From NCBI GenBank assembly GCA_018822545.1, contig JAHJKA010000060.1:1-64000 (forward strand): DNA of 64,000 bases, read 5' to 3'. Positions 13,140-44,738 of the stretch are shown here, one piece after another. Below the pieces are notes generated by a model. It did not search any database and was not told the DNA's origin. It saw only the letters and a list, made by a program, of their open reading frames with translations. A program made the position numbers and the translations under genes. How positions within the stretch are numbered: the stretch's first letter is position 1; each line of letters opens with the position of its first letter. Origin of the DNA: Pseudomonadota bacterium. GTDB lineage: Bacteria; Desulfobacterota; Desulfobulbia; Desulfobulbales; SURF-16.

Positions 13140-13151
13140 GATACCAGCAGG

Positions 13152-14021
13152 CTACAGGGTTTTCGCCACTTCTTTGATATGGTCGCTGAAGTTTTCACAG
13201 ACATCGGGATGGCGGAGGGCAAAGGCGATAATGGCTTTGAGGTAGCCCATCTTGTCACCGGCGTCAAAGCGGGTCCCCTCAAACTCATAGGCGTACATGC
13301 CTCTTTTGTTGGCCAAGGCCAGCAGGGCGTCGGTGAGCTGGATTTCACCGCCGTGACCCGGGGTAGTCTTGCCGAGGATGTCAAAGATGTCGGGTTGCAG
13401 GATGTAACGGCCGATAATGGCCATGTCGGATCGGGTGGTGCCGGGGGCTGGTTTTTCCACCATGCGCTCAATTTTATGGACCCTCGTTGAGGTGGGGGTT
13501 CCCTCGACAATGCCGTATTGATAGGTCTCCTCGGCGGGCACACGCTGGATGGCAACCACCGATTCCTGCACCTCGTTAAAGAGATTGGTCATCTGCTTGA
13601 GGCAGGGCTGTTCACTCAAGACCAGGTCATCGCCGAGGAGCACGGCAAAGGGCTCGTTACCCACGACATCGCGGGCCATCCAGATGGCGTGGCCCAGGCC
13701 CATGGGTTTTTTCTGGCGCACCGAGACCACATCGATGAGGTTGGAGATGTGGTTCATCTCCTCGGCCAGCCTGGTTTTCCCCTTGTCGGTAAGGGCGTGG
13801 TCCAGGGCAAAATCATAGTCGAAATGATTTTCAATGGCAGACTTGCCGGAGCTGGTGATAAAGATAATTTGTTCAATACCGGAGGCCACCACCTCTTCCA
13901 CGATGTACTGGATGGTGGGCCGGTCGACAATGGTGAGCATCTCTTTTGGGATGGCCTTGCTGGCCGGCAGGAATCGGGTGCCGAGCCCGGCAACGGGAAT
14001 GACAGCTTTGCGGACTTTCAT
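13152..14021 (-). CDS. galU: UTP-glucose-1-phosphate uridylyltransferase
   Basis: GalU makes UDP-glucose for LPS, capsule and other glycans. The 289 residues begin with KAVIPVAGLGTRFLPASKAI, the nucleotide-binding loop, and contain FAVLLGDDLVL, MVEKPAPGTTRSD and FDAGDKMGY. ATG 14021 was chosen because homology starts directly after it; the longer frame to 14126 is Phe-rich and unlike the family. priA starts 12 bases after its stop. Confidence 0.96.
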   Translation of the reverse strand: MKVRKAVIPVAGLGTRFLPASKAIPKEMLTIVDRPTIQYIVEEVVASGIEQIIFITSSGKSAIENHFDYDFALDHALTDKGKTRLAEEMNHISNLIDVVSVRQKKPMGLGHAIWMARDVVGNEPFAVLLGDDLVLSEQPCLKQMTNLFNEVQESVVAIQRVPAEETYQYGIVEGTPTSTRVHKIERMVEKPAPGTTRSDMAIIGRYILQPDIFDILGKTTPGHGGEIQLTDALLALANKRGMYAYEFEGTRFDAGDKMGYLKAIIAFALRHPDVCENFSDHIKEVAKTL

Positions 14022-14279
14022 AGGCAGTTGGGGAGATGGAGGTTTGTTGGTCTGTTTTTTGAAACCAGTAGGAAATAAGAAAGAAAAACAATACAATAGC
14101 CTATCACTGAGGCCTTTGAATGGCAAGGATGAATTGTGTTGCCTGTCCGCCTCTTTACTGAAGAATGTAAAGAAATAGAGAAGTTATGAGGAGGTCTAGA
14201 AACCACTCAAGGCATTCTTCCTTTATCTCTTTTATCTCCTTTATCTTCTCTAACTCCTTTAACTTCTGTCCTTTAAAAC

Positions 14280-15308
14280 ATGCATCCTCTTGAAAAAAAA
14301 ATACTGCAGCTGCTGACAGATAATAAACTGCTTATTGACAGGGAAGCAGTGCTTGTCGGAGTCTCTGCCGGAACAGACTCCATGGCCCTTTTCCATCTCC
14401 TTGCTGGATTTGGCAAGGCGTTACCTCTGAAAGTTACTGCTGTTTATGTCGACCATGGTTTGCGGCCCTCTGAAACCGAGGCAGAGGCGAACCTTGTTCA
14501 GGAGGCGGCGGTAAGACTTGCCGCCGGTTTTGCGCTGGTCAGGGTGGATGTCCGTGGTGAGGCGGCGCGGCAGAAAAAATCCCTGGAACATATGGCCCGA
14601 GATCTTCGTTACCAGGCCTTTGACCAAGTGGCGGCCCAGGTGGGTGCTGGCAAGATTGCCGTGGCCCATACCGCTGACGACCAGGCCGAAGAGATCATCA
14701 TCCGTATGCTGCGCGGCGCCGGACGCGGTGGCTTTTCAGGCATGAGGATGATCCGCGCTAACAGGATCATCCGGCCCCTCCTGACCACGCCTAAAGAGGA
14801 GATCCTCGTCTACCTGCAGGACAGAAATATCCCCTTTCTGGAGGATAGCTCAAATCAGGATTTACGTTTTTTGCGCAACCAGGTGCGCCTGGAGGTCCTG
14901 CCCTTTCTGGAAAGATACAATCCTGCTGTCCGCGAAACCCTGCGGCGCAGTGCTGCTATCCTTCAGGATGAGGAGGACCTCCTGGCTGAAGAGTCTGCGC
15001 GTTGTTGGCACGAATTGGCCTTGGTCGATAAAGGAAGCGTTGATGGCGGGCCAGAGGTGACGATCATGACAGGTAAACTCATGGAGCTTCATCCGGCCCT
15101 GCAGCGCAGGGTAGCCGAGCGTATGCTGCTTACCATGGAGGCCAGACCGGACAGCCGGCAGATTGAACACTTTATAAGTCTGGCACGAGAGGGGCAGGGC
15201 AACGCGCAGCTTCATTTTAGCGGAGGGCTGAGAATCAGGAAACACAAGGGGCAGCTTATCTGTTCCTATCCCCAGGGGAAAGGCGCAGGGCGTGGTGATC
15301 TGAGCTAG
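14280..15308 (+). CDS. tilS: tRNA(Ile)-lysidine synthetase
   Basis: TilS attaches lysine to C34 of tRNA-Ile(CAU), changing its decoding from AUG to AUA. The 342-residue protein has the PP-loop ATPase core (VGVSAGTDSMALFHLL), VDHGLRPSE, AHTADDQAEEIIIRMLRGAG and RPLLTTPKEEIL, then a helical region. The length suits the shorter TilS forms that lack part of the C-terminal domains. The PP-loop reads SAGTDS where SGGxDS is usual; Ala in the second position is a mild departure. No strong ribosome site precedes ATG 14280. Confidence 0.93.
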   Translation: MHPLEKKILQLLTDNKLLIDREAVLVGVSAGTDSMALFHLLAGFGKALPLKVTAVYVDHGLRPSETEAEANLVQEAAVRLAAGFALVRVDVRGEAARQKKSLEHMARDLRYQAFDQVAAQVGAGKIAVAHTADDQAEEIIIRMLRGAGRGGFSGMRMIRANRIIRPLLTTPKEEILVYLQDRNIPFLEDSSNQDLRFLRNQVRLEVLPFLERYNPAVRETLRRSAAILQDEEDLLAEESARCWHELALVDKGSVDGGPEVTIMTGKLMELHPALQRRVAERMLLTMEARPDSRQIEHFISLAREGQGNAQLHFSGGLRIRKHKGQLICSYPQGKGAGRGDLS

Positions 15309-28868: not shown

Positions 28869-30095
28869 CTAGAAGGTGGTGTTTAAGCCGACAGTAACCA
28901 TATGGGCGGCGGCGTTTTTGAATTCACCGACAATGGAATTGTTGTCATCAACCCGCAGTATGCGTTCGTCTTTGTCGTCATAAAGGTAGGCAAGTCCCAG
29001 TTCGTACTGGTCGTTGAGCTTGTACTTGCAGCCAAGAGAGTAGATCTTCGCGTCCGAGTCGGGAAGTTCAAAGCCCAGGGAGTGATCAGGAACCGGGGTC
29101 TCATCAATGGCAAAGCCGGCCATGAGGGTGAGACGGTTCTCTAACAGCTTCTGGGTGACGCCGATCCGGAAGGCGTCGGAATCATTGTAGTCTTTGGCTA
29201 CGGAATTGTCGAAAAGGTAGAAAGGGTGACCTGCTGCAAAGGTTTGGGCGTAGTCAAAATCCAATTCGTCATAGTCAGACCAGAAGGTGCGGTCCCAGAC
29301 CACCTCAATGGTGGTATTTTTCAGGGTATAGGCCACTGCCAGACTGAGAATCTCCGGTAGCGGCACACTCACTTCGCCGTCATCATCATAATCAAAGATC
29401 GTCGTAGGAGCATATTTTAAGGTAGCATCACCTTCCAGGGTAAGATTCACCTTGGAACGCCAGGTGACGGAGGTGGTCAGGTTGGCCATGGGTTTGACGG
29501 TGAGGGCCAGGTTATAGCCTTCGTCACAGGAATCACCTTCAAGCTCGCGGGATATAGCAGCATCGCTGCTCACCCGACCTTCGCTGTGGACGGCACGGAC
29601 ACCGGCGGCCACTGACACCTTGTCATGGAGTTTGTAGGACAGGGTGGGGTTAAGTTCAAGAACCTTCAAGGAAAATTCGCCAGCAGTGGCACCTGGGTAA
29701 GGGTCTGCCCAGCGTTTAGAAAGACCACCGGGGACAGTAAAGGAGAGGCCGAAGCGCATATTGCTGAACTCCGGGGAGACCAGATGAAACAGGGGCAGGA
29801 CAAAATCCTCTTCTTTGGAATTTCCATCCAGGGCAGGAGTGGTCAGGTGGGTGAACTCAACAGAGGTGAGATGGATGTACTGGGCGTCCACTTCCAACTG
29901 CCAGTTTTCCTTATCCTCTTCAAAGCTCATATTGGCTGGGTTGAAATAAGCGGCATCGGCACCATGGGCATTGGCGATATAGGCGGCGCTTAAGGCCGTA
30001 GAGTTCACAGATTGCTCTGGGATACGCCAGCCTGAGGCCAGGGCGCTGCCCGCGGTAAAGACTCCTGCTAAAACAAGTAAGGCGATTTTCTTCAT
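28869..30095 (-). CDS. FadL/TodX-family outer membrane transporter
   Basis: This 408-residue outer membrane beta-barrel has a signal peptide (MKKIALLVLAGVFTAGSALA), the FadL-type N-terminus GWRIPEQSVNSTALSAAYIA, the GADAAYFNPANM hatch motif, alternating beta strands, and an aromatic C-terminus (VTVGLNTTF). It probably imports long-chain fatty acids or other hydrophobic compounds. It directly follows an acyl-CoA synthetase gene on the same strand, fitting uptake plus activation. A strong AAGGGGAAG ribosome site is present. Confidence 0.93.
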   Translation of the reverse strand: MKKIALLVLAGVFTAGSALASGWRIPEQSVNSTALSAAYIANAHGADAAYFNPANMSFEEDKENWQLEVDAQYIHLTSVEFTHLTTPALDGNSKEEDFVLPLFHLVSPEFSNMRFGLSFTVPGGLSKRWADPYPGATAGEFSLKVLELNPTLSYKLHDKVSVAAGVRAVHSEGRVSSDAAISRELEGDSCDEGYNLALTVKPMANLTTSVTWRSKVNLTLEGDATLKYAPTTIFDYDDDGEVSVPLPEILSLAVAYTLKNTTIEVVWDRTFWSDYDELDFDYAQTFAAGHPFYLFDNSVAKDYNDSDAFRIGVTQKLLENRLTLMAGFAIDETPVPDHSLGFELPDSDAKIYSLGCKYKLNDQYELGLAYLYDDKDERILRVDDNNSIVGEFKNAAAHMVTVGLNTTF

Positions 30096-30149
30096 TTCTT
30101 CCCCTTGGCTGCTCTGACAGCCCTTACATAAAAAAATGAGTGATGGCTT

Positions 30150-31838
30150 TTATTGGCCATCAGCATAGAGATACCGTTTGATTTTATGGGTAGCCGTCTT
30201 GATAAACGGTTCTTGTCGTTCTGTAAAGTGGTGAATTCTTGAATAGGTCGGCAGCTGGGCATTGATCTCAGATTTCAGCTCGGCCAAGAGGCTGTTGATA
30301 TACTCAAGTTGCTCTGGCACGGAATTGTTGGCAGTCTCGCGATTAATGACATCGTGGTCCAGATAGATCTTGGCCTCGAGCTGGTTGTTATTTTCAATAA
30401 CCAAGGATTCTGCCACCCACTCCACCCCATTTAATTTTTCCTCAATGGTCTCAGGATAGATGTTTTCACCGCTGGACAGAACAATAACGCTTTTAGAACG
30501 ACCTTTAATATATAGAAAGCCCTCATTGTCAAAATAACCAAGGTCACCGGTGGCCAACCAGCCCCCAGGTTTCAAGGACTCTTGTGTTGCTTCGGGATCA
30601 CCCTCATAACCCTGCATGATATTGCTGCCCCTGGCCCATATTTCGCCAATGCCGGTTGCCGGATGGGGAGCATTGATCTTTATTTCCACGTCGGGCATGG
30701 GCATGCCACAGGAGCCAAGGGGAATAATAACATCGCCAAGAGGACCACCGGCGAGAAGCGGGGCCGATTCGGTGAGGCCGTAGCCCACCATATAGGGCAG
30801 GCAGGCCTCACGGAGAAAATGTTCAGCCTCGTAATTTAAAGCGGCACCGCCAATGCCGAGAAATTGTAGCTTGCCGCCAAAAAAGGCAAGGAGGCGGCCG
30901 CCGATTTTCTGCATGATCATGCGGCGGATAGGGCCAATCTTACAGGCCAGGCGCAGGATTTTTTTCTCGTGCAGGACGGCAAGTACCTTTTTTTTGTAGA
31001 TTTTCTCGATGACCATGGGCACCACAATCATGGCGGTGGGCTGTTCTTTCTGGCAGATGCGTTCCAGGAAGGTCGGGGTTGGAGGTTTGCCGGCAAAGAC
31101 TACCCTGCACCCCTGACTTAATGGGATGAGCAGCCCAACGGTAAATTCGTAGGTGTGGCTCATGGGCAGGATGGAGAGAAAGACCCACTCCGGGGTTGCT
31201 GTGGTCAAAACCTTGTTGCCGGAATTGACATTGGCGCAGAAGTTGCCATGGGAAAGCATGACGGCCTTTGAGTGCCCTGATGTGCCGGAGGTGTAGATCA
31301 CAGAGGCCAGGTCATCTGTTTTGACATCCTGGGCAATTTTCTCAACTTTAGTTATGGTTTTTTCGGGCAGATGGTGTCCTTTGGCAAGAAAAAGAGTCAG
31401 GGGCTCTACTTCATGGGATGCTGAGGGGTCGAGGCTGTCGTCAAGGGTGATGATGGTCTTCAGGGATGAGGTGGCTAGCTCATAGGTCTTTTCGATGTGG
31501 CGCTGGCTGGTGAAGATGATCTTGCACCTGGCTTCAGAAAGGATATGACGCACATCAGCATGGGGAAAGTCAGGCAAGATCGGTACGGCAATAGCCCCCA
31601 GGCGGATAATGGCAAAATAGGCCACGACCCAGTTCGGTGAATTTTCGGCCAGAATAGCCACTTTGTCTTTCTTTTTGACGCCTTCGACATGGAGAACTGC
31701 GGCAAGTTTTATGACCCTGGCATGGAGATGAGTATACGAGAAAGGGTCCTCAAAGGCCAAGCTCAGGGCGGGCCGATCGGCAAACTTGCTGCAGCTGAGG
31801 TCGAAAAGTTGGTTTAACGTAGCGAAGGTCATGGGCAT
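30150..31838 (-). CDS. AMP-dependent acyl-CoA synthetase/ligase
   Basis: This 562-residue adenylate-forming enzyme shows P-loop IYTSGTSGHSKAVMLSHGN, GYGLTESAPL, ATGDLGYFDNEGFLYIKGRSK and a C-terminal catalytic Lys region (THKIKRYLY). It most resembles long-chain fatty acid-CoA ligases. ATG 31838 or the ATG two codons later may start it. The next gene (FadL-like) is 54 bases downstream, suggesting that the two proteins handle the same imported fatty acid. Exact chain length cannot be read. Confidence 0.9.
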   Translation of the reverse strand: MPMTFATLNQLFDLSCSKFADRPALSLAFEDPFSYTHLHARVIKLAAVLHVEGVKKKDKVAILAENSPNWVVAYFAIIRLGAIAVPILPDFPHADVRHILSEARCKIIFTSQRHIEKTYELATSSLKTIITLDDSLDPSASHEVEPLTLFLAKGHHLPEKTITKVEKIAQDVKTDDLASVIYTSGTSGHSKAVMLSHGNFCANVNSGNKVLTTATPEWVFLSILPMSHTYEFTVGLLIPLSQGCRVVFAGKPPTPTFLERICQKEQPTAMIVVPMVIEKIYKKKVLAVLHEKKILRLACKIGPIRRMIMQKIGGRLLAFFGGKLQFLGIGGAALNYEAEHFLREACLPYMVGYGLTESAPLLAGGPLGDVIIPLGSCGMPMPDVEIKINAPHPATGIGEIWARGSNIMQGYEGDPEATQESLKPGGWLATGDLGYFDNEGFLYIKGRSKSVIVLSSGENIYPETIEEKLNGVEWVAESLVIENNNQLEAKIYLDHDVINRETANNSVPEQLEYINSLLAELKSEINAQLPTYSRIHHFTERQEPFIKTATHKIKRYLYADGQ

Positions 31839-32137
31839 GAAAAAATAGGTGTTTTATATACTCGTTGCGAGATTGCCGCCCCGAAAGAATTTCCTTAGTA
31901 AAGCAGTTGCCACGCCCATAACACGTGTGGCTTTTTGATGACAGATCGGCAGGATGATATCATCTGTTCTTATTGCGAACAAAAGCGTTCGTCAAGAGTT
32001 CTTGGTGGCGGCAAGGGAAATGGTAGGTGCGTCAAGAAGGGGCTCCCTATTGTTACCTTGGCAGTTCGACAACAGTCGAGCAATCTAAAACGGCCCTGTG
32101 CCCATACACTCACTAGGGGTGGAGACTTTATGGGAGG
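31839..32137. other. Intergenic gap, no gene seen
   Basis: 299 bp between the acyl-CoA synthetase start and the Nudix gene stop. A short plus-strand frame (31935-32141) lacks a ribosome site and any family pattern. Confidence 0.5.
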
Positions 32138-32623
32138 TTAGAGTCGCTGGAATTCCCAACTCACCGGTTGCCCTTTGTCATAAGGCATATAGCCATGGAA
32201 GGGGCGAGGATCTTCATCAAACACGAGGGGTAAAAAATGGCGATCCCCTGGCCACATGGGGAGGGTATGAAGTTCTTTAAGGGCATGCCAGGCCAAGGGT
32301 CCTTCCTTGTTTGTCAAGTAGGGTTGCCCTGAAAAGGCCGTGATGAGAAAGATAAACCCCAACCAGTTTTCCCCTGCGGGTCCGAAGTTCGGCCAGTTAA
32401 CGGTGCCGCGTAACTTCATTTCTAAACAGCTCAGGCCAGATTCTTCATGAATTTCACGACGCATACAACTGGCGACATCCTCGCCAGCTTTCATCTTTCC
32501 TCCCAAGCCGTTATATTTGCCGAGGTGGTGATCACCCTCTCTTCCAATGCGATGGACCAGCAGAGTTTTGTTGGCGTCAGGGGAGAGGATAAAGCCAAGG
32601 GTGCCAATTATAGGGGTATACAT
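32138..32623 (-). CDS. Nudix hydrolase, 8-oxo-dGTP diphosphatase-like
   Basis: This 161-residue protein has the Nudix box GKMKAGEDVASCMRREIHEE followed by SGL, the full Gx5Ex7REUxEExGU pattern, after an N-terminal TLGFILSPDANKTLLVHR. The layout resembles MutT/MTH1-type 8-oxo-purine nucleotide sanitising enzymes, including the W-rich stretch PMWPGDRHFLP. The substrate is inferred. It is a single minus-strand gene. Confidence 0.88.
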   Translation of the reverse strand: MYTPIIGTLGFILSPDANKTLLVHRIGREGDHHLGKYNGLGGKMKAGEDVASCMRREIHEESGLSCLEMKLRGTVNWPNFGPAGENWLGFIFLITAFSGQPYLTNKEGPLAWHALKELHTLPMWPGDRHFLPLVFDEDPRPFHGYMPYDKGQPVSWEFQRL

Positions 32624-33313: not shown

Positions 33314-33343
33314 TTGACAAGGCCTCTGGGCAAATCATAGAAT
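33314..33343 (+). promoter_or_regulatory. Sigma70-like promoter of the roadblock-MglA locus
   Basis: TTGACA (33314-33319), 18-base spacer, TAGAAT (33338-33343), with an A/T-rich upstream tract. It would give a leader of about 180 bases before GTG 33529, in which TGGTA-TACT-TACCA forms a small hairpin. Confidence 0.6.
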
Positions 33344-33528
33344 AGAAAATTGGTATACTTACCAGTGTGTTGGCCGTTAAATAGCAATAGATGAGTATGT
33401 GACAGTATAAGGACTTAAAGCATTTCTTTAGTGATTTTAAAATGTTAGGCCTAGTTGCTCCAGGTTCGCTGCCTGATCTGCTGAAGAAATAATGGCTTTA
33501 TTAAAAAAAACAAGTAGGGGGAGAGTAC

Positions 33529-33924
33529 GTGCCAGACATGATTTTGACAGCAGAGACTGTCGATGCCGTGAAGTCAATAGTCAATGATAAACTGATCAGT
33601 GAAAATGTTCAGACTGTTTTGGTTATTGATGGAGCTGGGAATATTTTGGCCCATTGCGGTCAAGATACTGATGGATTGGATGCTATCTCGTTGGCAGCAT
33701 TGACCGCCGCAAATTTCGGCGCCACCTCTCAGATAGCTAAGCTTATCGGTGAAAATGACTTCTCCCTTCTCTATCACAAGGGGGAAAAGGCCAATATCCA
33801 TTTTGCCAGGTTAGGTGGTGAGATGATTTTGGTGAGCATTTTTGGTGATGATGTTTCCCTTGGCTTAGTTCGTGTGCGCGTTGACGAAATTGCTGAGGAT
33901 ATTAATAAGATTTTTGAACAATAA
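33529..33924 (+). CDS. Roadblock/LC7 domain protein (MglB-like)
   Basis: This 131-residue single-domain roadblock/LC7 protein has VQTVLVIDGAGNILAHCG, a central helix SLAALTAANFGATSQIAKLI, then the strands FSLLYHKGEKANIHFARLGG and MILVSIFGDDVSLGLVRV. MglB-type roadblock proteins act as GTPase-activating partners of MglA. Translation starts at GTG 33529 with AGGGGGAGAG upstream. The MglA-like gene follows 19 bases later, the classic mglBA arrangement. Confidence 0.9.
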   Translation: MPDMILTAETVDAVKSIVNDKLISENVQTVLVIDGAGNILAHCGQDTDGLDAISLAALTAANFGATSQIAKLIGENDFSLLYHKGEKANIHFARLGGEMILVSIFGDDVSLGLVRVRVDEIAEDINKIFEQ

Positions 33925-33943
33925 GATTTTTAAAGGGTAATCA

Positions 33944-34558
33944 ATGGCCTTAATTGACCTTGGAAAGAAAGAAGTACATTGTAAGATTGTTTATTATGGT
34001 GCGGGAAGATGTGGTAAGACCACCAATCTTCTCTATATCTATAATGCCATGAGCGACAATGACCGTGGCAAGATGCTTACTATTGACACCAAGGGTGATC
34101 GAACACTCTTTTTTGATCTGCTCCCCCTGAACCTTGGCAAGATCAGTGGTTTTGATATTCGGATTCAACTTTATACTGTTCCTGGGCAGGTAATGTATGA
34201 GGCCACCCGGAAATTAGTTCTTAAGGGTGTGGATGGTCTTGTTTTTGTAGCAGACCCCCTCAAGGTAAGACAGGAACGGAATATTGAAAGTCTCGACGAT
34301 CTACGACGTAATGTCGCCGATCATGGTTTGGATCTCAAGGAGATGCCACTGGTGCTTCAGTACAACAAGAGAGATCTCTGTGATACTCCTGTGCCGACTT
34401 TGACTGTCGCAGAACTTGAGCATGACCTCAATCAGGAATACAAGGTTCCTGGGTTTGAGGCCATAGCCACCAAAGGTCCCGGAGTTTTTGAAACCCTTAA
34501 AGAGATAAGTAAGCGTACGGTTAATTATGTGGCTAATAAGCATCTCTTTAGTAAATAA
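33944..34558 (+). CDS. MglA-like small Ras-family GTPase
   Basis: The 204 residues have P-loop GAGRCGKT (19-26), the MglA arginine-finger region TKGDRTLFFDLLPL, the switch motif TVPGQVMYEATRKLVLKGVD (with Thr replacing the usual Asp of DxxG, as in MglA) and the base-recognition NKRD. MglA sets cell polarity and motility direction in Myxococcus and Bdellovibrio. AAAGGG lies before ATG 33944. It is paired with the roadblock gene just upstream and followed by a CheW-like protein and a GspE-type ATPase. Confidence 0.93.
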   Translation: MALIDLGKKEVHCKIVYYGAGRCGKTTNLLYIYNAMSDNDRGKMLTIDTKGDRTLFFDLLPLNLGKISGFDIRIQLYTVPGQVMYEATRKLVLKGVDGLVFVADPLKVRQERNIESLDDLRRNVADHGLDLKEMPLVLQYNKRDLCDTPVPTLTVAELEHDLNQEYKVPGFEAIATKGPGVFETLKEISKRTVNYVANKHLFSK

Positions 34559-34670
34559 AGATTTTCTTTGCGCGCTGAGAGCACTCGCAAAACAGTACAA
34601 TTGAACTAAAAGCCTTGCAAGAGGCGGTAAAAAATTCTGTAAGGGATTACCAGATAAGGAGTAGGTGCTG

Positions 34671-36293
34671 ATGGGCAGTAACGATATAATGAATCGTGGC
34701 GATTTTAATGCAAAAATATCAGATGCCGTTGATGACCTTTTTAATGCTGTTCGGCAGATTGAAATCGACCCGGCCACCAATGAAGTGAGGGAGTTAGGAC
34801 GTCCCGCTCCTAAGGCAGGGGCAGCAGCCCCGGCTCTGGAGCTTGAGAAAAAGGGTGGTAGCCAGGCTGCGCCGGCTGGAAAAGCTGCAGCGCCAAGTGC
34901 CAGTGCACAAAGCCATCACATATTGTCCAAACTGGATCAGTCCCTGATGACCCTTGACTGGGAGGTTAGCCGTTCTAATGCCGGCAATATGCGCGACCTT
35001 CTTGATAAGGCAGCCCGTGAGTATGATCTTGGACCCTTGCAGGGTGAGGGAGGCGTTATTTCCCTGATGCATAAAATACTGGCAATCATGAGTGATGCGC
35101 CGGAAAGTGTGCCCACCTCTGGTCCTCTTGCTTTGAAAAGTAGTTTGACAGCCTTAAAGGCTGCGGCCCTTGAGGGACAACCATACAGCGCCGAGACAAG
35201 AACGAAGCTAGAGCAGGCTCAAAATGCCCTACTGTCAGTTCTCCCGGAACAACGGGGTGTAGTGTCTGCCGCACCTTCGCAAGCACCGGTTGCTGTAAGT
35301 GCTGCGCCTCCACTGCCAAAAGAGTTTCAAGTTACCCTGAAAAATCATATCGCCCGCCTTGACCAACTCATTAACAAACGGCTCATCCCTGTTGAGAAGT
35401 TTTTTGGCAAGACAGCCAGTCTGGCAAAACTTTATGTTGTAATGAAAGCTGTTCGACAACAGTTGGCTGAACAGTCTGAGCAGCTCAAGGCTGCTCTAGC
35501 AGGGCGTTACAGTAATGTTATGCCCGTGGCCGATCCTGTGGGTATCAGTATCAAGCTTGGTAATGAATGCCAGCAGCTTATGCAATATCATTTACAGGTC
35601 CTGAATCATTGTGCCCGACGCGTCGCACCTATTGAAAAATTGTTTGCCGATCTGGAAGGACAGCATAAATTACATACCATCCATTTTGAGATACGGAGCG
35701 GGTTAATGGGGCAGCTTCATTACGTGGCTGCCGCTCTGGACGGAGATTTTGGCCCTCTGCCGCCCTTGCCTAAACTGGCAGCGGCGGCTCCAGTAGCCGC
35801 GCCTAGGCAGGCTGGTGCCGCTGTAGCTGCCTGTCCATGGCCGACCATGATGGTGGGGCGCTGGCGGGGAGAACATGTTGCCTTTATCTCTGATCAGGTT
35901 TGTTTTGAAGGGAAGGCCGGTTTCGGTTCTGGGAATATCGTTCGCCAACAGTCTTTAAAATTGAAAACACTCAAGTCCTGGCCCTGGTCCGGATTGAGAT
36001 CAAAATTTCGTAGTGGGCTGGCTGAAAAGACGAATAAAGAACTGGCTAGTCTGGAGTTCCCTGTCCTGGACTTACCACTGCCTGCCTCCGGTTTGGGTGG
36101 AAAATATATAGTTATTCTTTTCCAGGCAGCTAAGGGTGGAGTTGTTCTCATTGATGCTCCTCTTGAGGAGCTGGAAATCGGTGATCAGTACAAGTGGAAG
36201 GCCAGCACTACCAGCGAGGGAGATCTTGTCTGTGGCACCATTTGCTCTGACTTTGGTGAACCTATTCCTGTGGTGGATGTCACAAGACTGTAG
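34671..36293 (+). CDS. Large CheW-like scaffold protein, unknown function
   Basis: A 540-residue protein I cannot name. Residues about 40-80 are an Ala/Pro-rich linker; 85-210 are helical. A duplicated helical unit occurs near residues 238 and 318 (IPVEKFFGKTASLAKL versus APIEKLFADLEGQHKL, both followed by a basic helix). From about 390 to the end there is a CheW-like beta domain: WRGEHVAFI, FPVLDLPLP, KYIVILFQAAKGGVVLIDA and a final PIPVVDVTRL. ATG 34671 was chosen because AAGGAG lies 9 bases upstream; a GTG at 34665 is too close. CheW domains dock kinases to receptors, but none are encoded nearby. Confidence 0.72.
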   Translation: MGSNDIMNRGDFNAKISDAVDDLFNAVRQIEIDPATNEVRELGRPAPKAGAAAPALELEKKGGSQAAPAGKAAAPSASAQSHHILSKLDQSLMTLDWEVSRSNAGNMRDLLDKAAREYDLGPLQGEGGVISLMHKILAIMSDAPESVPTSGPLALKSSLTALKAAALEGQPYSAETRTKLEQAQNALLSVLPEQRGVVSAAPSQAPVAVSAAPPLPKEFQVTLKNHIARLDQLINKRLIPVEKFFGKTASLAKLYVVMKAVRQQLAEQSEQLKAALAGRYSNVMPVADPVGISIKLGNECQQLMQYHLQVLNHCARRVAPIEKLFADLEGQHKLHTIHFEIRSGLMGQLHYVAAALDGDFGPLPPLPKLAAAAPVAAPRQAGAAVAACPWPTMMVGRWRGEHVAFISDQVCFEGKAGFGSGNIVRQQSLKLKTLKSWPWSGLRSKFRSGLAEKTNKELASLEFPVLDLPLPASGLGGKYIVILFQAAKGGVVLIDAPLEELEIGDQYKWKASTTSEGDLVCGTICSDFGEPIPVVDVTRL

Positions 36294-36516
36294 GATGGCT
36301 TGACAAATCAGGTTTTTTTCAAGGTCAGATAAGCGTAGACTGCCCCTTTGCATTCCGTGGAAGAGTTTGCGATCATCAAGCATGAATTTGGCCGACAAGA
36401 CAATCCCAAGGTGGCCCTGATGGGCCCCACTTCACCTTGGGTCGCGTTCAAGATCTTAATCGCACATCTCTGATGATGTGTTTTGGTGTGTTTCCTAGCC
36501 TCAACCAGCAATAGCA
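36294..36516. other. Intergenic stretch with a bulged hairpin
   Basis: 223 bp before the GspE-like gene. At 36406-36440 an outer stem CCAAGGTG/CACCTTGG and inner stem GGCCC/GGGCC enclose a TGAT loop with a 7-base bulge. No T run follows, so it is not an obvious terminator; it may be a leader structure or a processing site. Confidence 0.5.
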
Positions 36517-38838
36517 ATGTCGGAATCCAAACAATATTTTGAAGATCGCTTAGCAGAAGCAGAACTCTATAAGACCCATGGCCTTGATAAAGAGGCGTGT
36601 GCCATATATGATGAGCTCCTTTCAAAAATTGATGCGGAAAAACATGCCAAACTCTATAGCCAGATCAAAGAACGTTTAGATTCGGCCCGTGGGCCTGCCG
36701 AGGTTCATATCAAAGAAGTGGCTCCGGCTTCTGGTGCTAATGATGAGCGCCGTCTTGAAAATTGTGATGGTCTTGTTGAAGCCGGTTTTTTTCAAGAGGC
36801 CATTGATGAGCTTCATAAGCTTTTTGAGTCCTCCATTCAGCCTGGCCTCATCAGTTTTCGAATCGGTCAATGCTATAATCGCCTTGAAAAACCTTATGAG
36901 GCTGTTGATTTTTTTGAAAAGGCCTTAAGCGATGTAGGACTTGAGGATAAGGATCGGTTGGATATACTCGACCGGCTTGCCCTTGCCCAAGAGCAAAACG
37001 GTAATATGAAGGAGGCTATGCGGGCTCTGGAAGCTGTCTGCTCTCTTGATTCCACCTTTCGCGATGCCGGCAAAAGGCTTGAACATATCAAGCAAAATGC
37101 CCAGAAATCAGGACGTTTTTTTCGGCTCATCAGTGGTGGTTATCTTGTCCAAAATGACCTTGAACAGGCCAGAAGAACTGCCCAGCAGCAGGCCAAATCC
37201 ATCGAGGCTGTTCTTGTTGAATCCTATAGTGTCGATAAAGGTGAACTGGGCAAGTCTTTAAGCGAATATTATGGTTGTCCATTTATTGAATACACTGAGG
37301 GGAGTGTCGGTCCGAAGCCTGGCTGTGTTAAGGGAATCAGTGAGAAGTTCTTTCGGACCAATAAATGTATTCCTCTCTACGATGAGAACCATAATCTCCT
37401 TCTGGCCATCGACAACCCCACCGACAGTGTTCGGGCCGATAATGTCAAAGCATCCCTGAATTCCCGGGATATTGAGCTGGCCGTGGCGCTCAAGGATGAT
37501 ATTGATAAAATCATTGACGCCTACTACGGCATGCAAGAAACAGCTGCCGAGTTGGATGGTGATGACGATGTCTTTGAGCAGCTTGAACTCGTCGATGAAA
37601 CTGCCGAAGAGGAGGTTGTCGATGATAGCGGTGCCGTTGCTGAGGGCGTTGTCGTTCAGATGGTCAACAAGATCATTGAGGATGCCTTTCTCAGGGATGC
37701 CTCGGATATTCACATTGAGGCCATGCCCGGCAAGCGCGGGGTGCTGATCCGTTTCAGGGTTGACGGACAGTGTCTGCATTACAAGACTGTGCCCGCCCAG
37801 TTTAAACGGCCGTTGGTGGCCCGTATCAAGATTATCTCCAAACTTGACATCTCAGAACGGCGGATGCCTCAGGATGGTAAGATAAAGTTCAAGACCCGCG
37901 CCGGCAAGATTATTGAACTCAGGGTGGCAACCTTGCCCACTGTTGGTGGCAATGAGGATGCCGTGCTTCGTCTGCTCGCGGCAAGTGGCGCCATGCCTTT
38001 AGAGAAAATGGGCCTCCTGGATCACGTCTATGCCAAATTTATGGAGGTCCTTGCTATACCATACGGGTTGGTTCTTGTGGTCGGTCCGACCGGTTCTGGT
38101 AAGACAACCACCCTTCATGCCGCCTTGGCCAAGATAAACACCCCGCAAAGAAAGGTGTGGACGGCCGAAGATCCGGTGGAGATTGTCCAAGATGGTTTGC
38201 GTCAGGTTCAGGTCCAGCCCAAGATTAATTTGAATTTTGCCAGGGTATTACGCGCTTTCCTCCGTGCCGATCCTGACGTCATCATGGTTGGTGAGACCCG
38301 GGATGAAGAAACGGCGGAGATCGTTGTTGAGTCAGCTCTGACCGGTCATCTGGTTTTTTCGACCCTGCATACGAATTCGGCGCCGGAGACGGTAACCCGT
38401 CTTCTCGGTATGGGTATTGATCCCTTCAATTTCGCGGATTCTCTCCTTGCTGTACTTGCCCAGCGTCTGGTTCGTCGCCTCTGTGTGCATTGTAAGGAAA
38501 AGTATCAACCCGACCAGACAGAAAGAGAACTTATCCTCACCCTCTATGGCAATCATAAGGTGCATCCGTTGACGGATAAAGATCTCCAGGTGGATTTGTA
38601 TCGCAGTAAGGGCTGTCCGAAATGCCAGCATTCAGGCTATAAAGGGCGACTGGCTGTTCATGAGCTGCTGACCTCCAATGATTCTCTGCAGCGTAAAATT
38701 GCCCTCGCCGCCCCTGTGGGTGAGATTCGTGATTTAGCCATGGACAACGGCATGCTCACCTTGATGCAGGATGGTATCTGGAAAGTAATTCAGGGGCACA
38801 CTGATCTCATGCAGATTCGCGCCACCTGTGCTAAGTAA
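36517..38838 (+). CDS. GspE/PilB-type ATPase with N-terminal TPR and MshEN regions
   Basis: A 773-residue type II/IV secretion-system ATPase. Residues about 5-190 form TPR-like helices (FFQEAIDELHKLF, KPYEAVDFFEKAL). About 200-262 resemble an MshEN domain (YLVQNDLEQARRTAQQQ then YYGCPFIEY), which binds c-di-GMP in MshE. The motor core follows: ASDIHIEA, Walker A GPTGSGKTTT (about 522), the Asp box EDPVE, Walker B DPDVIMVGETRDEET, His box STLHTNSAPE, and zinc Cys pairs CVHC/CPKC. No pilin, platform or secretin gene is near. No clear ribosome site precedes ATG 36517. Confidence 0.92.
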   Translation: MSESKQYFEDRLAEAELYKTHGLDKEACAIYDELLSKIDAEKHAKLYSQIKERLDSARGPAEVHIKEVAPASGANDERRLENCDGLVEAGFFQEAIDELHKLFESSIQPGLISFRIGQCYNRLEKPYEAVDFFEKALSDVGLEDKDRLDILDRLALAQEQNGNMKEAMRALEAVCSLDSTFRDAGKRLEHIKQNAQKSGRFFRLISGGYLVQNDLEQARRTAQQQAKSIEAVLVESYSVDKGELGKSLSEYYGCPFIEYTEGSVGPKPGCVKGISEKFFRTNKCIPLYDENHNLLLAIDNPTDSVRADNVKASLNSRDIELAVALKDDIDKIIDAYYGMQETAAELDGDDDVFEQLELVDETAEEEVVDDSGAVAEGVVVQMVNKIIEDAFLRDASDIHIEAMPGKRGVLIRFRVDGQCLHYKTVPAQFKRPLVARIKIISKLDISERRMPQDGKIKFKTRAGKIIELRVATLPTVGGNEDAVLRLLAASGAMPLEKMGLLDHVYAKFMEVLAIPYGLVLVVGPTGSGKTTTLHAALAKINTPQRKVWTAEDPVEIVQDGLRQVQVQPKINLNFARVLRAFLRADPDVIMVGETRDEETAEIVVESALTGHLVFSTLHTNSAPETVTRLLGMGIDPFNFADSLLAVLAQRLVRRLCVHCKEKYQPDQTERELILTLYGNHKVHPLTDKDLQVDLYRSKGCPKCQHSGYKGRLAVHELLTSNDSLQRKIALAAPVGEIRDLAMDNGMLTLMQDGIWKVIQGHTDLMQIRATCAK

Positions 38839-38870
38839 ATTTTGATTTTAAGTTGTTTTAAGGAATGGGT

Positions 38871-40070
38871 ATGAAAAAGATATTGATTGTTGATGACGAG
38901 AATAATTTCTTGTTGAGCCTTGAGGATGGCCTGAAAGAGTTCAGTGATTCCTTTTCCATCGCCACTGCCAATAATGGTAAAGAGGCCGTGGCGGTCATGG
39001 AGAAGGAAAAAGTCAACTTGGTCATCACAGACATAAAAATGCCAGATATGGATGGCTTTGAGTTGCTTGCTCATTTGAGTGCTGTTCATTCTGATATCCC
39101 GGTCATCGTCATGACTGCCTTTGGTTCTTCTGAAATTGAAGATCGTCTCGATAACATGGGGGCTTTTCAGTACATTGAGAAGCCCATTGATTTTGATGTG
39201 TTGATTGAAAAGGTGAAAGATGGGCTTGCTGCCGGGGAAAAGGGGCATATAACCGGAGTGTCGTTAGCCTCTTTTATGCAGCTGCTCTCCCTTGACAAAA
39301 AAACATGTACCCTCAAAGTCACCTCAGGTGAACATGTGGGGAGTGTTTTTTTTCTTAATGGTGACTTAATGCATGCCTTCACCGAAAGTCTACAAGGCCA
39401 GGAGGCCGCCCTGGAGATTGCCTGTTGGGAGCCAGTTGAGATTGAGATTCAACATTTTTGCCGTCAGCGGGAGAGGGTGATTGAATCGCCACTTGGTTTT
39501 GTTCTCATCGAGTCTGCCCGCATGAAGGATGAACGGAAAGATCGTGCATCCGGTGGTAAGGGGATGGCGGAAGAAGAGCAACGGGAGAAGAAGAAAAAAG
39601 CACCCCGTGCAGAGGAAGGTGTTGTCCGTGAGATAGATCCTGCATCCCTGGTGCAGCCGGCGGAAACAGCAGAGGGTTTTGCCAGAGAGATTGATCCGGC
39701 TTCTTTGGTTTCTGAACCAGAGGCACCATCGGTTCCTCCGCAAATTATCCCCATGTTTGAAGCATTGAAGGTCATGGAGGGAGTAACGCGCTTTGCCATT
39801 TTAAACCGCGAAGGTCTCTTGATCGCTGAACTAAAAAATGGCAATGAATTTGGTCCTTATATCACTATGTTGCTTACCGCGACTGAAAAACTTAATGCTG
39901 ACTTAGGCATTTCGGCACCCCAGAGTTTAGTAATCAACAAGAGAACAGGAAGCAAAATCCTCATCATTGCCGGGCCGCACATCATTGTCGGTCTCGATCT
40001 ATCGAATGATGCCTCAGCAGGATCAATAGCTGATAGTATGCGTCCCATGGTTCAACGGATTTCACTGTAG
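38871..40070 (+). CDS. Receiver-DUF4388-roadblock signalling protein
   Basis: A 399-residue three-part protein: receiver domain 1-120 (VDDENNF, phosphoacceptor D54 in ITDIKMPDMDG, MTAFG, YIEKPID), a DUF4388 (PatA-like) domain about 126-205 (GVSLASFMQLLSLDKKTCTL, GSVFFLNGDLMHA), a charged linker, and a roadblock-like C-terminus about 290-395 (VTRFAILNREGLLIAEL). The linker holds the motif REIDPASLV twice (about 253 and 272). ATG 38871 has AAGGA at 6 bases; ATG 38865 touches it. It probably links phosphorylation by an unseen kinase to the MglA module. Confidence 0.85.
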   Translation: MKKILIVDDENNFLLSLEDGLKEFSDSFSIATANNGKEAVAVMEKEKVNLVITDIKMPDMDGFELLAHLSAVHSDIPVIVMTAFGSSEIEDRLDNMGAFQYIEKPIDFDVLIEKVKDGLAAGEKGHITGVSLASFMQLLSLDKKTCTLKVTSGEHVGSVFFLNGDLMHAFTESLQGQEAALEIACWEPVEIEIQHFCRQRERVIESPLGFVLIESARMKDERKDRASGGKGMAEEEQREKKKKAPRAEEGVVREIDPASLVQPAETAEGFAREIDPASLVSEPEAPSVPPQIIPMFEALKVMEGVTRFAILNREGLLIAELKNGNEFGPYITMLLTATEKLNADLGISAPQSLVINKRTGSKILIIAGPHIIVGLDLSNDASAGSIADSMRPMVQRISL

Positions 40071-40153
40071 GTTTTTTTTACTATATGCATAGTATTTAGG
40101 TGCAGCTGCTATTTATTAGAGAAATGGTTTTTGATTTTAGATTGGGAAAATAA

Positions 40154-40882
40154 ATGAACGATTTATTGCAAGAGATTAAAATGCTCAAGGGCGTGCTCGG
40201 CGCATTTGTTTATACAGATAAATTCGGCCTGGTTGCCTGCGAAATGCCTCCTTCGGCAAGCTTTACTTTAGCTTCAATGGAAAAAGTTGGTGTCTTTGTA
40301 AAGCGCTTTTTTAGTAATCCGACCACAGTGGAATTCGGTGTCATGAGTTACGAGATCAGAAACAGCGAGTCGTTGTTGCTTCTGAAGAAGATTGACAGTC
40401 ATGCGACCTTGGTGACAATCTGCGAGCCCGTAGTTAGCATGCCCCTTGTGAATATGACCACCAGCATGTTGATTGCCGAGTTAAAGTCGGCTGTTGATTT
40501 AATTACAGAAAAGCCTGATCTTTCAAAATTTCAAGGGCAGGGGAAAGCTGCAACAATAGCTCCTGTCCAAGTAAAGAATGTTGCCAGCCAACCCGCCAAG
40601 CCTGCTGTTGCCCCCCCACCCAAGTCAAAGGTCATTGATGTTGAGAAACTGATGAGCGAAGGGCCTTTTGCAGCTATTGCCAGAAAACTTGAGGATTCCA
40701 TGGCGAGAGCTATTGGTCCTGTTGGAAATATGGTAGTGCGGGATTGTGTTGATAAATGGGTGGCAAATGGGTCACCTTCTAAAGATCGTTTTGGGGAACT
40801 TATGACGCTCCTTCTTAAAGAGATAGGGGATAGCCGTCTGGAAGAAGAATTCCGTCAGGAAGTTGGTTCGTTGTTAAGCTGA
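40154..40882 (+). CDS. Roadblock-like protein with C-terminal helical domain
   Basis: A 242-residue protein. Residues 1-115 resemble a divergent roadblock/LC7 fold (LKGVLGAFVYTDKFGLVACE at the start, then LLLLKKIDSHATLVTICEP). After a Pro/Ala/Lys linker (about 120-160) comes a compact helical domain (KLMSEGPFAAIARKLEDSMA ... EEEFRQEVGSLLS) similar in style to helical domains found with bacterial signalling proteins. I know no function. It is the last gene of the locus, followed by a very strong terminator. Confidence 0.7.
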   Translation: MNDLLQEIKMLKGVLGAFVYTDKFGLVACEMPPSASFTLASMEKVGVFVKRFFSNPTTVEFGVMSYEIRNSESLLLLKKIDSHATLVTICEPVVSMPLVNMTTSMLIAELKSAVDLITEKPDLSKFQGQGKAATIAPVQVKNVASQPAKPAVAPPPKSKVIDVEKLMSEGPFAAIARKLEDSMARAIGPVGNMVVRDCVDKWVANGSPSKDRFGELMTLLLKEIGDSRLEEEFRQEVGSLLS

Positions 40883-40903
40883 GTTGCGTGCTGTGAAGAG
40901 TAA

Positions 40904-40956
40904 GTGCACAAAAAAAACCTGATTGGATGTTCATCCAATCAGGTTTTTTTGTGCAC
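40904..40956. terminator. Very strong bidirectional terminator
   Basis: A near-perfect 25-bp stem: GTGCAC, an A run, CCTGATTGGATG, a TT loop, then CATCCAATCAGG, a T run and GTGCAC. It lies between the convergent roadblock-like gene and the TPR gene and can stop transcription from both sides. Confidence 0.95.
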
Positions 40957-40975
40957 GAAAGGAAACTACTTCCCG

Positions 40976-41686
40976 TTAGTCGGCGCCCATTTGGTTGTCA
41001 TCAAGGGTACCGGTGATGTCGGAGTGACCTGTCTTATCAAACAGCAGGCTTTGAATTCCTTCAGTTTGCATTGGGGAAGCTGCTAACGGTTTCATGACCT
41101 CCGGATCCTGCATAATAAGAACCTGTGTTGGTTCATAGGGAATCGGGTTTGCTTCATCTGTCGCAGGAGTCGATGATTTTTTTTCAGCTTTTGGTGCTGA
41201 CTTGGCTTCATCGAGGGGGTTCACAAAAGCAGCTATAGCATCATCACCGCCCGATTTTTTTGCCAGGGCCTTAGCTTCCGCTAAGGAATTTTGGGCCCGC
41301 TTATTATCTGGTTCCAAGGATAGGCCAGTTTCATATGCCTTAACTGCATCTCCTGGGATGTCGAGATTAATGTACATATCACCCATACCAAAATAACTCT
41401 TGGCATATTTCGGGGCCAGTTTGGCAGCGATCTGATAATGTTTGAGGGCCAGCTTGTATTTACGTAAACGCTCCATGGCGTAAGCGTATTCAAAATTTAT
41501 AATAGGATCATTGGGGCAATCACTAATGCCCTGCTTAGCCAGTTCCTTACGTTGCAAAATGTCAGATTGCTCTTCAATCTGCTTTCGAATGGCCAGGCAG
41601 TCGGCAGCAAGAACCTCGCTGGCAAAGCTATGAAATACAAGCAAGGAAAGGAGAAACCCTGAGATGATAAGGGGATATTTTTTCAT
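40976..41686 (-). CDS. Periplasmic TPR protein
   Basis: This 236-residue protein has a signal peptide (MKKYPLIISGFLLSLLVFHS, cleavage likely near EVLAA) and about three TPR units (FEYAYAMERLRKYKLALKHY, AKSYFGMGDMYINLDIPGDA, AVKAYETGLSLEPDN), followed by a low-complexity tail (Lys/Ser/Ala, then acidic). TPRs mediate protein contacts. It starts one base after the stop of the haem sensor gene, so the two are almost surely co-expressed and may work together. Confidence 0.8.
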   Translation of the reverse strand: MKKYPLIISGFLLSLLVFHSFASEVLAADCLAIRKQIEEQSDILQRKELAKQGISDCPNDPIINFEYAYAMERLRKYKLALKHYQIAAKLAPKYAKSYFGMGDMYINLDIPGDAVKAYETGLSLEPDNKRAQNSLAEAKALAKKSGGDDAIAAFVNPLDEAKSAPKAEKKSSTPATDEANPIPYEPTQVLIMQDPEVMKPLAASPMQTEGIQSLLFDKTGHSDITGTLDDNQMGAD

Positions 41687-41687
41687 T

Positions 41688-42560
41688 TTAGCGCCTAGTG
41701 AGCATCCTGGCTACGCTGATCCGGAGCCGGTCTATAGCTCTTGAAAGAGAGCCAATCTCATCGTTTGATTTAATAACAACGGGTTGGTCAAGGCTTTTGC
41801 CAAGACTTATTTCTTCGGTACGGCTGTTTAACCGCATAATGGGCTGCACAACACCTTTCTCGAGGAAGATGCTGATGACAAAGAGGGTGAAGATTAAGCA
41901 GCCGGCACCAATACCAAGAAGAGTCATGGCGGTTTGCTTGGCTTGGGCAATGGCCCCGGAAATAGGAATATAGACAAGTAGACTTGCCACAATTTCATTC
42001 ATCTTCCAGTTGTAGCCGCTTTCTGTTCCATAAATAACAACCTGATCCTTTGGTGCAAGGGCAGGGTCAGAGTGGCACTCAAGGCAGGCAGGATTATCAA
42101 CCTTAAGGGGGATAGCCTGAAAATAAAAGTCAATGCCATTCTTTGTAATGGTGCCGGTAGTTTCTTTGAGTTTTTGGTCGGCTTTGAATTTGTCTAAAAT
42201 TTGTACCTCAAAGTCATCGGCCCGGTTTGTTTCCTTAAGGGGATTTGTTGCCGCATATTTAATCGTAAAGCCAGGCATTCTTTGGTTGAAGTAATCAAAA
42301 GTGGTACTGGTTGCAGCAAAACCAGACATCAGGTTTGGGTAGAAACGATCTTTTTCAATAAGCTCGTTAATGAGTGGAGTTTGGTTTTTTTGGAAAAAAT
42401 GGCGTTGGGATTGTAAATAGTTAAAGATAATCTCACCCTTATTGCCAGCTTCAATCATGGCAGCTCGACGGCTGAATTCATAACTGGCAGCGCCCAGTGC
42501 AACAAGAGCGAGCAGGCTGAGAATCCCCATGATGATCAAAAAACGTGTTCTAATACCCAC
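41688..42560 (-). CDS. Tll0287-like haem sensor with HAMP domain
   Basis: A 290-residue membrane protein: N-terminal TM (FLIIMGILSLLALVALGAAS), a periplasmic Tll0287-like (DUF3365) domain with one c-type haem motif CLECH (after KVDNPA), a second TM (LLGIGAGCLIFTLFVISIFL) and a cytoplasmic HAMP domain ending the protein (SNDEIGSLSRAIDRLRISVA). There is no kinase or cyclase output of its own. Translation starts at GTG 42560 with AAGGAG upstream. The histidine kinase encoded 204 bases upstream on the same strand could be its output partner. Confidence 0.88.
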   Translation of the reverse strand: MGIRTRFLIIMGILSLLALVALGAASYEFSRRAAMIEAGNKGEIIFNYLQSQRHFFQKNQTPLINELIEKDRFYPNLMSGFAATSTTFDYFNQRMPGFTIKYAATNPLKETNRADDFEVQILDKFKADQKLKETTGTITKNGIDFYFQAIPLKVDNPACLECHSDPALAPKDQVVIYGTESGYNWKMNEIVASLLVYIPISGAIAQAKQTAMTLLGIGAGCLIFTLFVISIFLEKGVVQPIMRLNSRTEEISLGKSLDQPVVIKSNDEIGSLSRAIDRLRISVARMLTRR

Positions 42561-42764
42561 TTATCTTCTCCTTATTTATAAAACTGTTTTTACTTCACAC
42601 ATTATTAAAATAACATTGTTTTTTATATTAGGAAACATCAATAAAACTGTCAAGGATACCCTGATGACATACAAAACTGAAAGATGATAAAAACGTTAAA
42701 TTCTATACAAGCAATGCCTGGCCGTGAAAATTCATCGTGAGGAGGGGAATGCAGCAAGGGTACT

Positions 42765-43841
42765 CTATAGGGACTGTTTGTAAGAGGCAGTCTCATAGGA
42801 ACGTGCCTTTGGAATGGTAATGGTTACCGTGGTGCCTTGGCCTTCTATACTGGCAATATCGATGGAGCAACTCATCTGAGCCAGCATTTTTTTTGATAGG
42901 GCAAGTCCAAGTCCGGTGCCCTTTTCCTTGGTGGTATAAAAGGGCTTGAAAACATCATGAAGGGATGCTGCTGCAATGCCACAGCCGGTATCTTTGATTT
43001 CTAACAGGGTGCTTGGACCATGGGAGCGGGCGGAGATGGCCAGGCGCGCCTCCTTGTTGTCATGCATGGCATCCATGGCGTTAGCCAAGATATTCATGGT
43101 AACTTGTTGTAGGGCACGACGATCCACCTTAACCATCTCTGATCCAGGTTCAATATCAACACTGATAGCTATCAGTGTATCTTTGACACTTGAGTAGGCG
43201 GTAATGAGCTGGGTGTTATGCATGATGAAGTCCGAGAGGTCCATCACCGCTGTCTGCGGTTTTTCATACATGTTGAAGTTCTTGAAGGATTTTAAGAGTT
43301 GTTCAATTCTTGCTATTTCTTCAAAGACACGGACGAAATAGACCTCAATTTCGTCCGGAGAGTAGCGATCAATATTCTTTTGAAGGACAGTGATAGCCAT
43401 TTTTATGGAGTTAAGTGGATTTCCGATTTCATGACGAATGCCTGAAAAAATGTAGCCGACATTGTTCATGGTAACCACGGCTTCTGCAATAGAATCCATC
43501 CTTTTTTGGTCAGTAATATCCTGCAGAAGAATGGAAATAAAACGCCGCGATTTATCCGGGGAACCAAAGGTATAGCCAATAAAACGTTCGCCATGTTTTT
43601 TGACGGTTTTCACCTTCTGGGATGTTTCTGAGTCCAGAAGTTCGGATACGGATGAATCAATTATTGGAAATAAAGAGTCGAAATCAGGAGAAAGCTTGAT
43701 GAGATTAAAAATCTCTGCCGCCTGCTGGTTGCAATAGGTGATAATCTTTTTTTTGATGTCAATAATGACAATGCCAAGATGAATATCTTGGAGAATGTCT
43801 CGGAAAATTTGACCGTCGCAGTCTTGTGAAGGAGTGGCCAT
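42765..43841 (-). CDS. PAS-containing sensor histidine kinase
   Basis: This 358-residue soluble kinase has an N-terminal PAS-like domain (LGIVIIDIKKKIITYCNQQA), an H box IFSGIRHEIGNPLNSIKMAI (His in RHEIGNP), an N box MNILANAMDAMHD, and G boxes IKDTGCGIA and GTGLGLALSKKML. There is no TM segment, so it is probably cytoplasmic. No cognate response regulator is adjacent. Same orientation as the haem/HAMP gene downstream. Confidence 0.92.
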   Translation of the reverse strand: MATPSQDCDGQIFRDILQDIHLGIVIIDIKKKIITYCNQQAAEIFNLIKLSPDFDSLFPIIDSSVSELLDSETSQKVKTVKKHGERFIGYTFGSPDKSRRFISILLQDITDQKRMDSIAEAVVTMNNVGYIFSGIRHEIGNPLNSIKMAITVLQKNIDRYSPDEIEVYFVRVFEEIARIEQLLKSFKNFNMYEKPQTAVMDLSDFIMHNTQLITAYSSVKDTLIAISVDIEPGSEMVKVDRRALQQVTMNILANAMDAMHDNKEARLAISARSHGPSTLLEIKDTGCGIAAASLHDVFKPFYTTKEKGTGLGLALSKKMLAQMSCSIDIASIEGQGTTVTITIPKARSYETASYKQSL

Positions 43842-44243: not shown

Positions 44244-44738
44244 ATGTCAAAAAGAGTACGCGTAAATAATGATAATTTGGCGGCAATCAAATGCCCACAC
44301 TGCCAAAGCATGAAGCTTATCTCTGTACACAAGTTTAAAGGGCTCAAGCATTCGCTCAAGGTGAAATGCACCTGCAATAATAGTTTCTCTGTTTCTTTGG
44401 ATTTTCGGGAGAGGTACCGGAAGTCGACAAATATAGATGCTAAATATGTCAAGTTTGATAAAGATATAAGGATTGTTAAGGGACAGGCAGAACCCAACCT
44501 GAAATGCAAGGTTGCTGATTTGTCGCTGAGCGGCTTGGCCTTGACCATAATAGGCTCCCACAACCTACAGGTGGGTGATGTACTCATGGTGGAGTTTGAT
44601 TTGGATGATAAGGCGAATACCCATATAAAGAGAAAGGCTATTATCCGTGTGATTGGCCAGGGGTTTGTGGGGTGTCAGTTTGATGAAGCGGGGTCGCCGG
44701 CCTATGACAAGGCTCTAGGTTTTTATTTGATGCCCTAA
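44244..44738 (+). CDS. PilZ domain protein with N-terminal CxxC pair
   Basis: This 164-residue protein has residues 17-50 with a zinc-ribbon-like set (IKCPHCQSM ... KVKCTCNN), then a PilZ domain with the c-di-GMP motifs RERYRK (RxxxR-type) and VADLSLSGLAL (D/NxSxxG-type), and VGDVLMVEFDLDD. It is a probable c-di-GMP receptor. A terminator follows directly. The ribosome site GAGG is weakly spaced. Confidence 0.85.
   Translation: MSKRVRVNNDNLAAIKCPHCQSMKLISVHKFKGLKHSLKVKCTCNNSFSVSLDFRERYRKSTNIDAKYVKFDKDIRIVKGQAEPNLKCKVADLSLSGLALTIIGSHNLQVGDVLMVEFDLDDKANTHIKRKAIIRVIGQGFVGCQFDEAGSPAYDKALGFYLMP

Follow-up and report, generated by a model that had tools for sequence, protein, structure and literature searches.

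The 64,000-nucleotide stretch analysed here (the window; positions 1 to 64,000 of contig JAHJKA010000060.1, assembly GCA_018822545.1, from a bacterium of the order Desulfobulbales) contains a locus in which a GTPase of the MglA type is encoded together with a PilB/GspE-type ATPase. Six open reading frames (ORFs), all on the + strand, span 33529-40882 and encode, in order, MglB, MglA, a CheW-fold scaffold, a TPR-MshEN-GspE-type ATPase, a REC-DUF4388-roadblock protein and a second roadblock protein. An initial annotation of the sequence had described six co-directional genes with these domains, and Pfam, PDB and fold comparisons bear it out. It had also set the genes between a good promoter and a strong terminator, but only the latter holds. 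The sigma-70-like promoter match (TTGACA-18-TAGAAT, 33314..33343, +) is weak, with 11/12 consensus positions, and no better than expected, the region containing 20 promoter-like sites against 20.2 in shuffles; it is not evidence of a promoter. The terminator, a palindrome at 40904-40958 listed without a strand, is real and exceptional (-35.1 kcal/mol, z -10.4) and separates two convergent operons. To call the locus self-contained was too strong, since a conserved convergent cluster at 40976-43841 belongs with the module and the unit is not closed at 40956.

The first gene (33529..33924, +; GTG start) encodes a 131-aa MglB-like roadblock protein that matches Robl_LC7 (1.1e-12) and, in the PDB, Myxococcus xanthus MglB (5.4e-22). 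The second (33944..34558, +) encodes a 204-aa MglA-like Ras-family GTPase with matches to Pfam Ras/Arf and a best PDB match to M. xanthus MglA (1.4e-63). Aligned with the latter (6h17), the protein is identical at 103 of 193 positions and retains the P-loop and the equivalents of Arg53, Thr54, Thr78 and Gln82; mglB is adjacent. Judged by sequence, both proteins are true homologues of the Myxococcus pair. The third gene (34671..36293, +; ORF 34665-36293, with the ATG at 34671) encodes the 540-aa scaffold, which has no Pfam match, and none to PF01584 (CheW) in particular. Its AlphaFold2 (AF2) model (predicted local distance difference test, pLDDT, 78) consists of an N-terminal helix, a helical 'DWEVS' domain, helical hairpins and a C-terminal CheW-fold domain (~residues 385-540). 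When this model was compared by Foldseek, the 11 best matches were all CheW proteins or CheA chains (probability 0.96-1.00, E 5e-3 to 9e-2), with a template-modelling (TM) score of up to 0.56 on the target, the query being the whole, largely helical protein. CheA chains contain a CheW-like P5 domain. The C-terminal domain of the scaffold is CheW-like in its modelled fold. The same genome contains a second MglB-MglA pair (L066, G000:C31:5000-24900, at 9920-14321, +). It is followed by a 565-aa protein distantly related to the scaffold, by a 283-aa protein and by two short ones, of which one resembles the second roadblock protein; there is no ATPase in that locus.

The fifth and sixth genes complete the operon. 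The fifth (38865..40070, +) encodes a 401-aa response regulator with a receiver (Response_reg, 1.1e-26), DUF4388 (3.1e-13) and a C-terminal roadblock domain; if DUF4388 corresponds to PATAN, receiver and DUF4388 together form the layout of a PATAN response regulator. Sequence evidence is weaker for the C-terminus: per-member Pfam scans matched Robl_LC7 in 7/16 orthologues (best 9.4e-6), and the similarity to MglB in profile comparison is weak. The sixth gene (40154..40882, +) encodes a 242-aa protein with a roadblock fold and a C-terminal helical domain. It has no Pfam match and its roadblock profile comparison was negative; fold comparison alone was positive, the N-terminal half of the AF2 model (pLDDT 82) matching an archaeal roadblock in Foldseek (1.2e-6, TM 0.79). 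Three roadblock domains, as initially proposed, are present: in gene 1 (by Pfam), at the C-terminus of gene 5 (by orthologue scans) and in the N-terminal half of gene 6 (by fold). The calls made by eye on the 540-aa protein, the gene 5 C-terminus and gene 6 were upheld by Foldseek, the Robl_LC7 scans and Foldseek, respectively. The three domains may act as docking sites, as was also suggested. In three of the 26 related genomes read in detail, the DUF4388 protein is shorter, with no receiver and with the helical domain of the sixth gene product at its end; at L053, L054 and L059, such a fusion links both genes.

The fourth gene (36517..38838, +) encodes the 773-aa ATPase, with Pfam matches to TPR, MshEN (9.2e-14) and T2SSE (2e-116). 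Of 27 full-length orthologues, all have Walker A, Walker B, the Asp box and the tetracysteine motif, and 24 have the His box; the MshEN cyclic di-GMP (c-di-GMP) motif pattern occurs in 0/27. The NCBIfam c-di-GMP motif model NF053729 does not match the module ATPase, yet it matches four other ATPases of the genome. The best NCBIfam model is PilB, at 516.2 bits, below the TIGR02538 equivalog cut-off of 675.65. In a quickly computed tree, which has several long branches in its other parts, the module ATPases form a single clade (SH-aLRT 100), to which canonical PilB is nearest (88), with MshE and GspE apart. Because it falls below the TIGR02538 cut-off and in a separate clade, the module ATPase is classed, on sequence grounds, as a paralogue within the PilB family rather than as PilB itself; tree and model scores rule out a type II GspE identity. 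Canonical PilB is present in 48/58 relatives and in 15 of the 18 module carriers; its absence from the host metagenome-assembled genome (MAG), which is 84.8% complete, is no evidence. The idea that the ATPase is simply the main PilB, split from a pilus operon by a local rearrangement, is rejected on the strength of these 15 carriers and the separate clade.

The coexistence of the two ATPases also bears on an alternative in which the module ATPase now serves in signalling or regulation, as a subunit that senses or competes with PilB, for example in mixed rings or by titrating the platform, and assembles no filament. It would fit an ATPase that always lies in a signalling operon, never adjoining pilus structural genes, and whose slot is filled in four loci by a kinase-fused protein (see below). 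However, a purely regulatory role would relax the motor motifs, and all of these, including the tetracysteine, are kept in 27/27 orthologues; the alternative is considered unlikely. Three more PilB/GspE-type ATPases without adjacent platform genes are encoded in the host genome (L062 on C69, L063 on C6 and L064 on C61), that of C61 being 884 aa long and neighboured by a MinD-like ATPase and two HDOD-like proteins. The canonical PilB of the order (L160-L168, L173) is itself an orphan gene, far from other pilus genes and inside a conserved block resembling one-carbon/CO-dehydrogenase metabolism genes.

The N-terminal part of the ATPase sets it apart. A TPR model of its first 200 residues found no match in canonical PilB or in the genome's other ATPases. 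The same model matches TPR-protein kinase fusions at four loci (L223, L225, L231, L234), mostly colinearly from near the N-terminus, and these loci are MglB-MglA-scaffold operons in which a protein kinase domain replaces the ATPase domain in the slot after the scaffold. The colinear matches favour a common adaptor. Because the same slot can hold a kinase with a comparable TPR region, the TPR region of the ATPase is suggested to form the link to MglA and the scaffold, and the C-terminal part the output. Some of the fusions may be pseudokinases, given what seem to be alterations of the catalytic loop in L223 and of the DFG motif in L225. In one genome (L071 and L090), a 72-aa ORF matching the ATPase N-terminus precedes the ATPase gene, as if the first TPR unit had been duplicated or the gene split.

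The module is widespread. Relatives of the 540-aa protein were found in 32/116 related genomes from eight families, and carriers by name include Desulfobulbaceae, Desulfurivibrio and Desulfocapsa. All six genes are complete and in order in 18 of the 26 genomes read in detail, and five more are cut at contig ends. The gene order, which the initial annotation had proposed to check in relatives, is syntenic in the order and also far beyond it, ruling out a chance assembly of genes. In a sample of the phylum, the 540-aa family profile matched 66/395 genomes, and in 21 of 33 further loci fetched the module-type ATPase adjoins the scaffold. At 12 of these 21 core loci and at L095, a chemosensory operon runs divergently from the core; it encodes CheB-type regulators, a DUF4388-receiver-CheB protein, CheY and CheA and begins with an HDOD protein in all but two loci. 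CheA is absent from the window. The DUF4388 response regulator is present with both types of input. Since 21/33 phylum loci keep the core and a CheA operon or two-component genes alternate beside it, the true core is MglB-MglA-scaffold-ATPase, with inputs that vary by lineage. At L143, L224, L229, L232, L233 and L240, the MglA-scaffold operon lacks the ATPase, and a PAS histidine kinase and a receiver protein come next. No description of this gene set was found in the literature searched. The same distribution makes it very improbable that the locus is a conventional Myxococcus-type polarity module placing existing machines, with the ATPase as a passenger or localisation marker: MglA and MglB are indeed true homologues of the Myxococcus pair, but an ATPase found after the scaffold across the whole order, and at 21 further loci from many families, is not a passenger.

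The likely source of the input lies beyond the terminator, in three genes on the - strand. They encode an exported TPR protein (40976..41686; from a domain scan; conserved with the module, most orthologues being longer), a Tll0287-like sensor with a CxxCH c-haem motif, two transmembrane-like segments and HAMP but no kinase domain (41688..42560), and a PAS-HisKA-HATPase histidine kinase without transmembrane segments (42765..43841), the last two from domain scans and synteny. Within the order, the sensor is present in 18/19 loci with a visible downstream side, always with CxxCH, and the histidine kinase is its proposed partner. Other families have a histidine kinase gene immediately upstream of the one for the receiver-DUF4388 protein (L129-L131, L134, L135, L140). 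Given this convergent cluster and the upstream kinases elsewhere, two-component input is the simplest reading. The chemosensory input initially suggested is plausible in view of the divergent CheA/CheY/CheB operons of other families, but within Desulfobulbales a two-component relay is likelier than CheA. Further out, the upstream genes for a FadL-like porin, an AMP-dependent ligase and a Nudix protein (window 28869-32623, -) adjoin the module only in close relatives and are not counted as part of it, and a PilZ-domain protein past the sensor cluster (window 44244-44738, +) keeps its position within the same genus only.

Variable inputs and the kinase fusions can be combined in a broader, more tentative view, in which the locus is possibly one form of a modular bacterial Ras cassette: MglA and MglB on a CheW-fold scaffold, with swappable inputs (CheA operon or haem-sensor relay) and swappable outputs (motor ATPase or protein kinase) attached through a common TPR adaptor.

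Elsewhere, the host genome encodes three platform proteins (a type II protein, an MSHA-like protein and an orphan PilC with no adjoining pilB), a pilMNOP-secretin cluster and a pilT-family gene. It is somewhat more likely than not that the locus provides a second extension motor, switched by a GTPase, and that this motor serves a type IV pilus-type machine with its pilin, platform and secretin genes elsewhere in the genome. The scheme that follows is built on observed gene content, folds, conservation, clade and motifs; its interactions, direction of regulation and pilus target are all inferred. The periplasmic c-haem sensor (Tll0287-HAMP), whose anatomy and synteny are observed, would drive the soluble histidine kinase, which would phosphorylate the receiver of the REC-DUF4388-roadblock protein. 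This protein, the second roadblock protein and MglB would set the nucleotide state of MglA, if their activities follow those known in Myxococcus. MglA-GTP, held on the CheW-fold scaffold, would engage the N-terminal TPR region of the ATPase, a step suggested in part by the four kinase-fusion loci, and the released ATPase would dock on the orphan PilC-type platform and drive extension beside or instead of canonical PilB. In other families, the CheA-containing chemosensory operon would take the place of the first two steps. The TPRs would then be a GTPase docking adaptor and the DUF4388 regulator the phospho-input, and a relay from MglA to TPR to PilB, formed by separate proteins in M. xanthus, would here be contained in one operon, with TPR and motor in one polypeptide.

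Several points weigh against a second extension motor of this kind. pilC is present in 53/58 relatives with or without the module, so that co-occurrence does not tie the two, and the platform served by the ATPase could be the MSHA-like one or another. TPRs share a generic resemblance, and some of the similarity to the kinase fusions may be superfamily noise. DUF4388 is here presumed to be PATAN, partly from a match in Synechococcus elongatus, an identity that the literature searched did not confirm. The choice of platform leads to a further alternative, that the module controls another surface or secretion machine (an MSHA-like pilus or a type II-like system) and not the pilC/pilMNOP-secretin machine. 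The genome does have an MSHA-like locus and one for type II secretion, each with its own platform, but both already have their own adjacent ATPases, and the module clade groups with PilB, not with MshE or GspE, making such a target improbable.

The second-motor reading has several parallels. PilB of M. xanthus is brought to the pole by the TPR protein SgmX, itself recruited by MglA-GTP; the mechanism is stated to be unknown, and no direct SgmX-PilB binding has been detected (PMC11580455). The system of MglA/MglB, RomR/RomX and SgmX shares with the module MglA, MglB, a response-regulator input and a TPR link from MglA to a PilB-type ATPase (PMC9481161, PMC11580455), whereas the module fuses TPR and ATPase, has a CheW-fold scaffold and a DUF4388-roadblock regulator in the operon, and has a dedicated second ATPase. 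PilB1 of Synechocystis is bound by PATAN response regulators, one of which, PixG, binds PilC as well (PMC12288463, PMC10519157). PixG/PixE-PilB1 and the module both pair a regulator of receiver and DUF4388 (taken as PATAN) with a PilB-type motor, but the module has a fused roadblock, MglA/MglB and scaffold in the same operon, and no photoreceptor. Acinetobacter baylyi uses two extension motors on one machine, the second being TfpB, which resembles the module ATPase in being a second PilB-family ATPase in a PilB-bearing genome (PMC8213720, PMC11656802). As described there, TfpB does not lie in a GTPase operon, and the module ATPase, at 396 bits, scores far short of the TfpB model cut-off of 850. 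Streptomyces conservons (Cvn) reportedly include a roadblock protein, as does the module, but are not known to have a motor ATPase or a CheW-fold scaffold. They do combine a small GTPase and a histidine kinase in one locus (PMC4316618). One of the genes that are raised along with those of type IV pili in early aggregates of Syntrophobacterium fumaroxidans is mglA (PMC10787695). A review of PilB control names neither MglA nor any PilB homologue with a fused TPR (PMC11656802).

With the TPR region and a PilB-family motor in one polypeptide of an MglA operon, their coupling becomes testable with few purified proteins. In a large group of anaerobes, the locus joins one motor with roadblock, CheW-fold, PATAN-type and receiver proteins, and its conservation in sulfate-reducing bacteria and their relatives offers a direct route to how a Ras-like switch turns a surface machine on and off. 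Set beside the systems above, it is a variant of MglA-controlled surface-machine regulation and not a wholly new kind, though richer than the initial annotation described.

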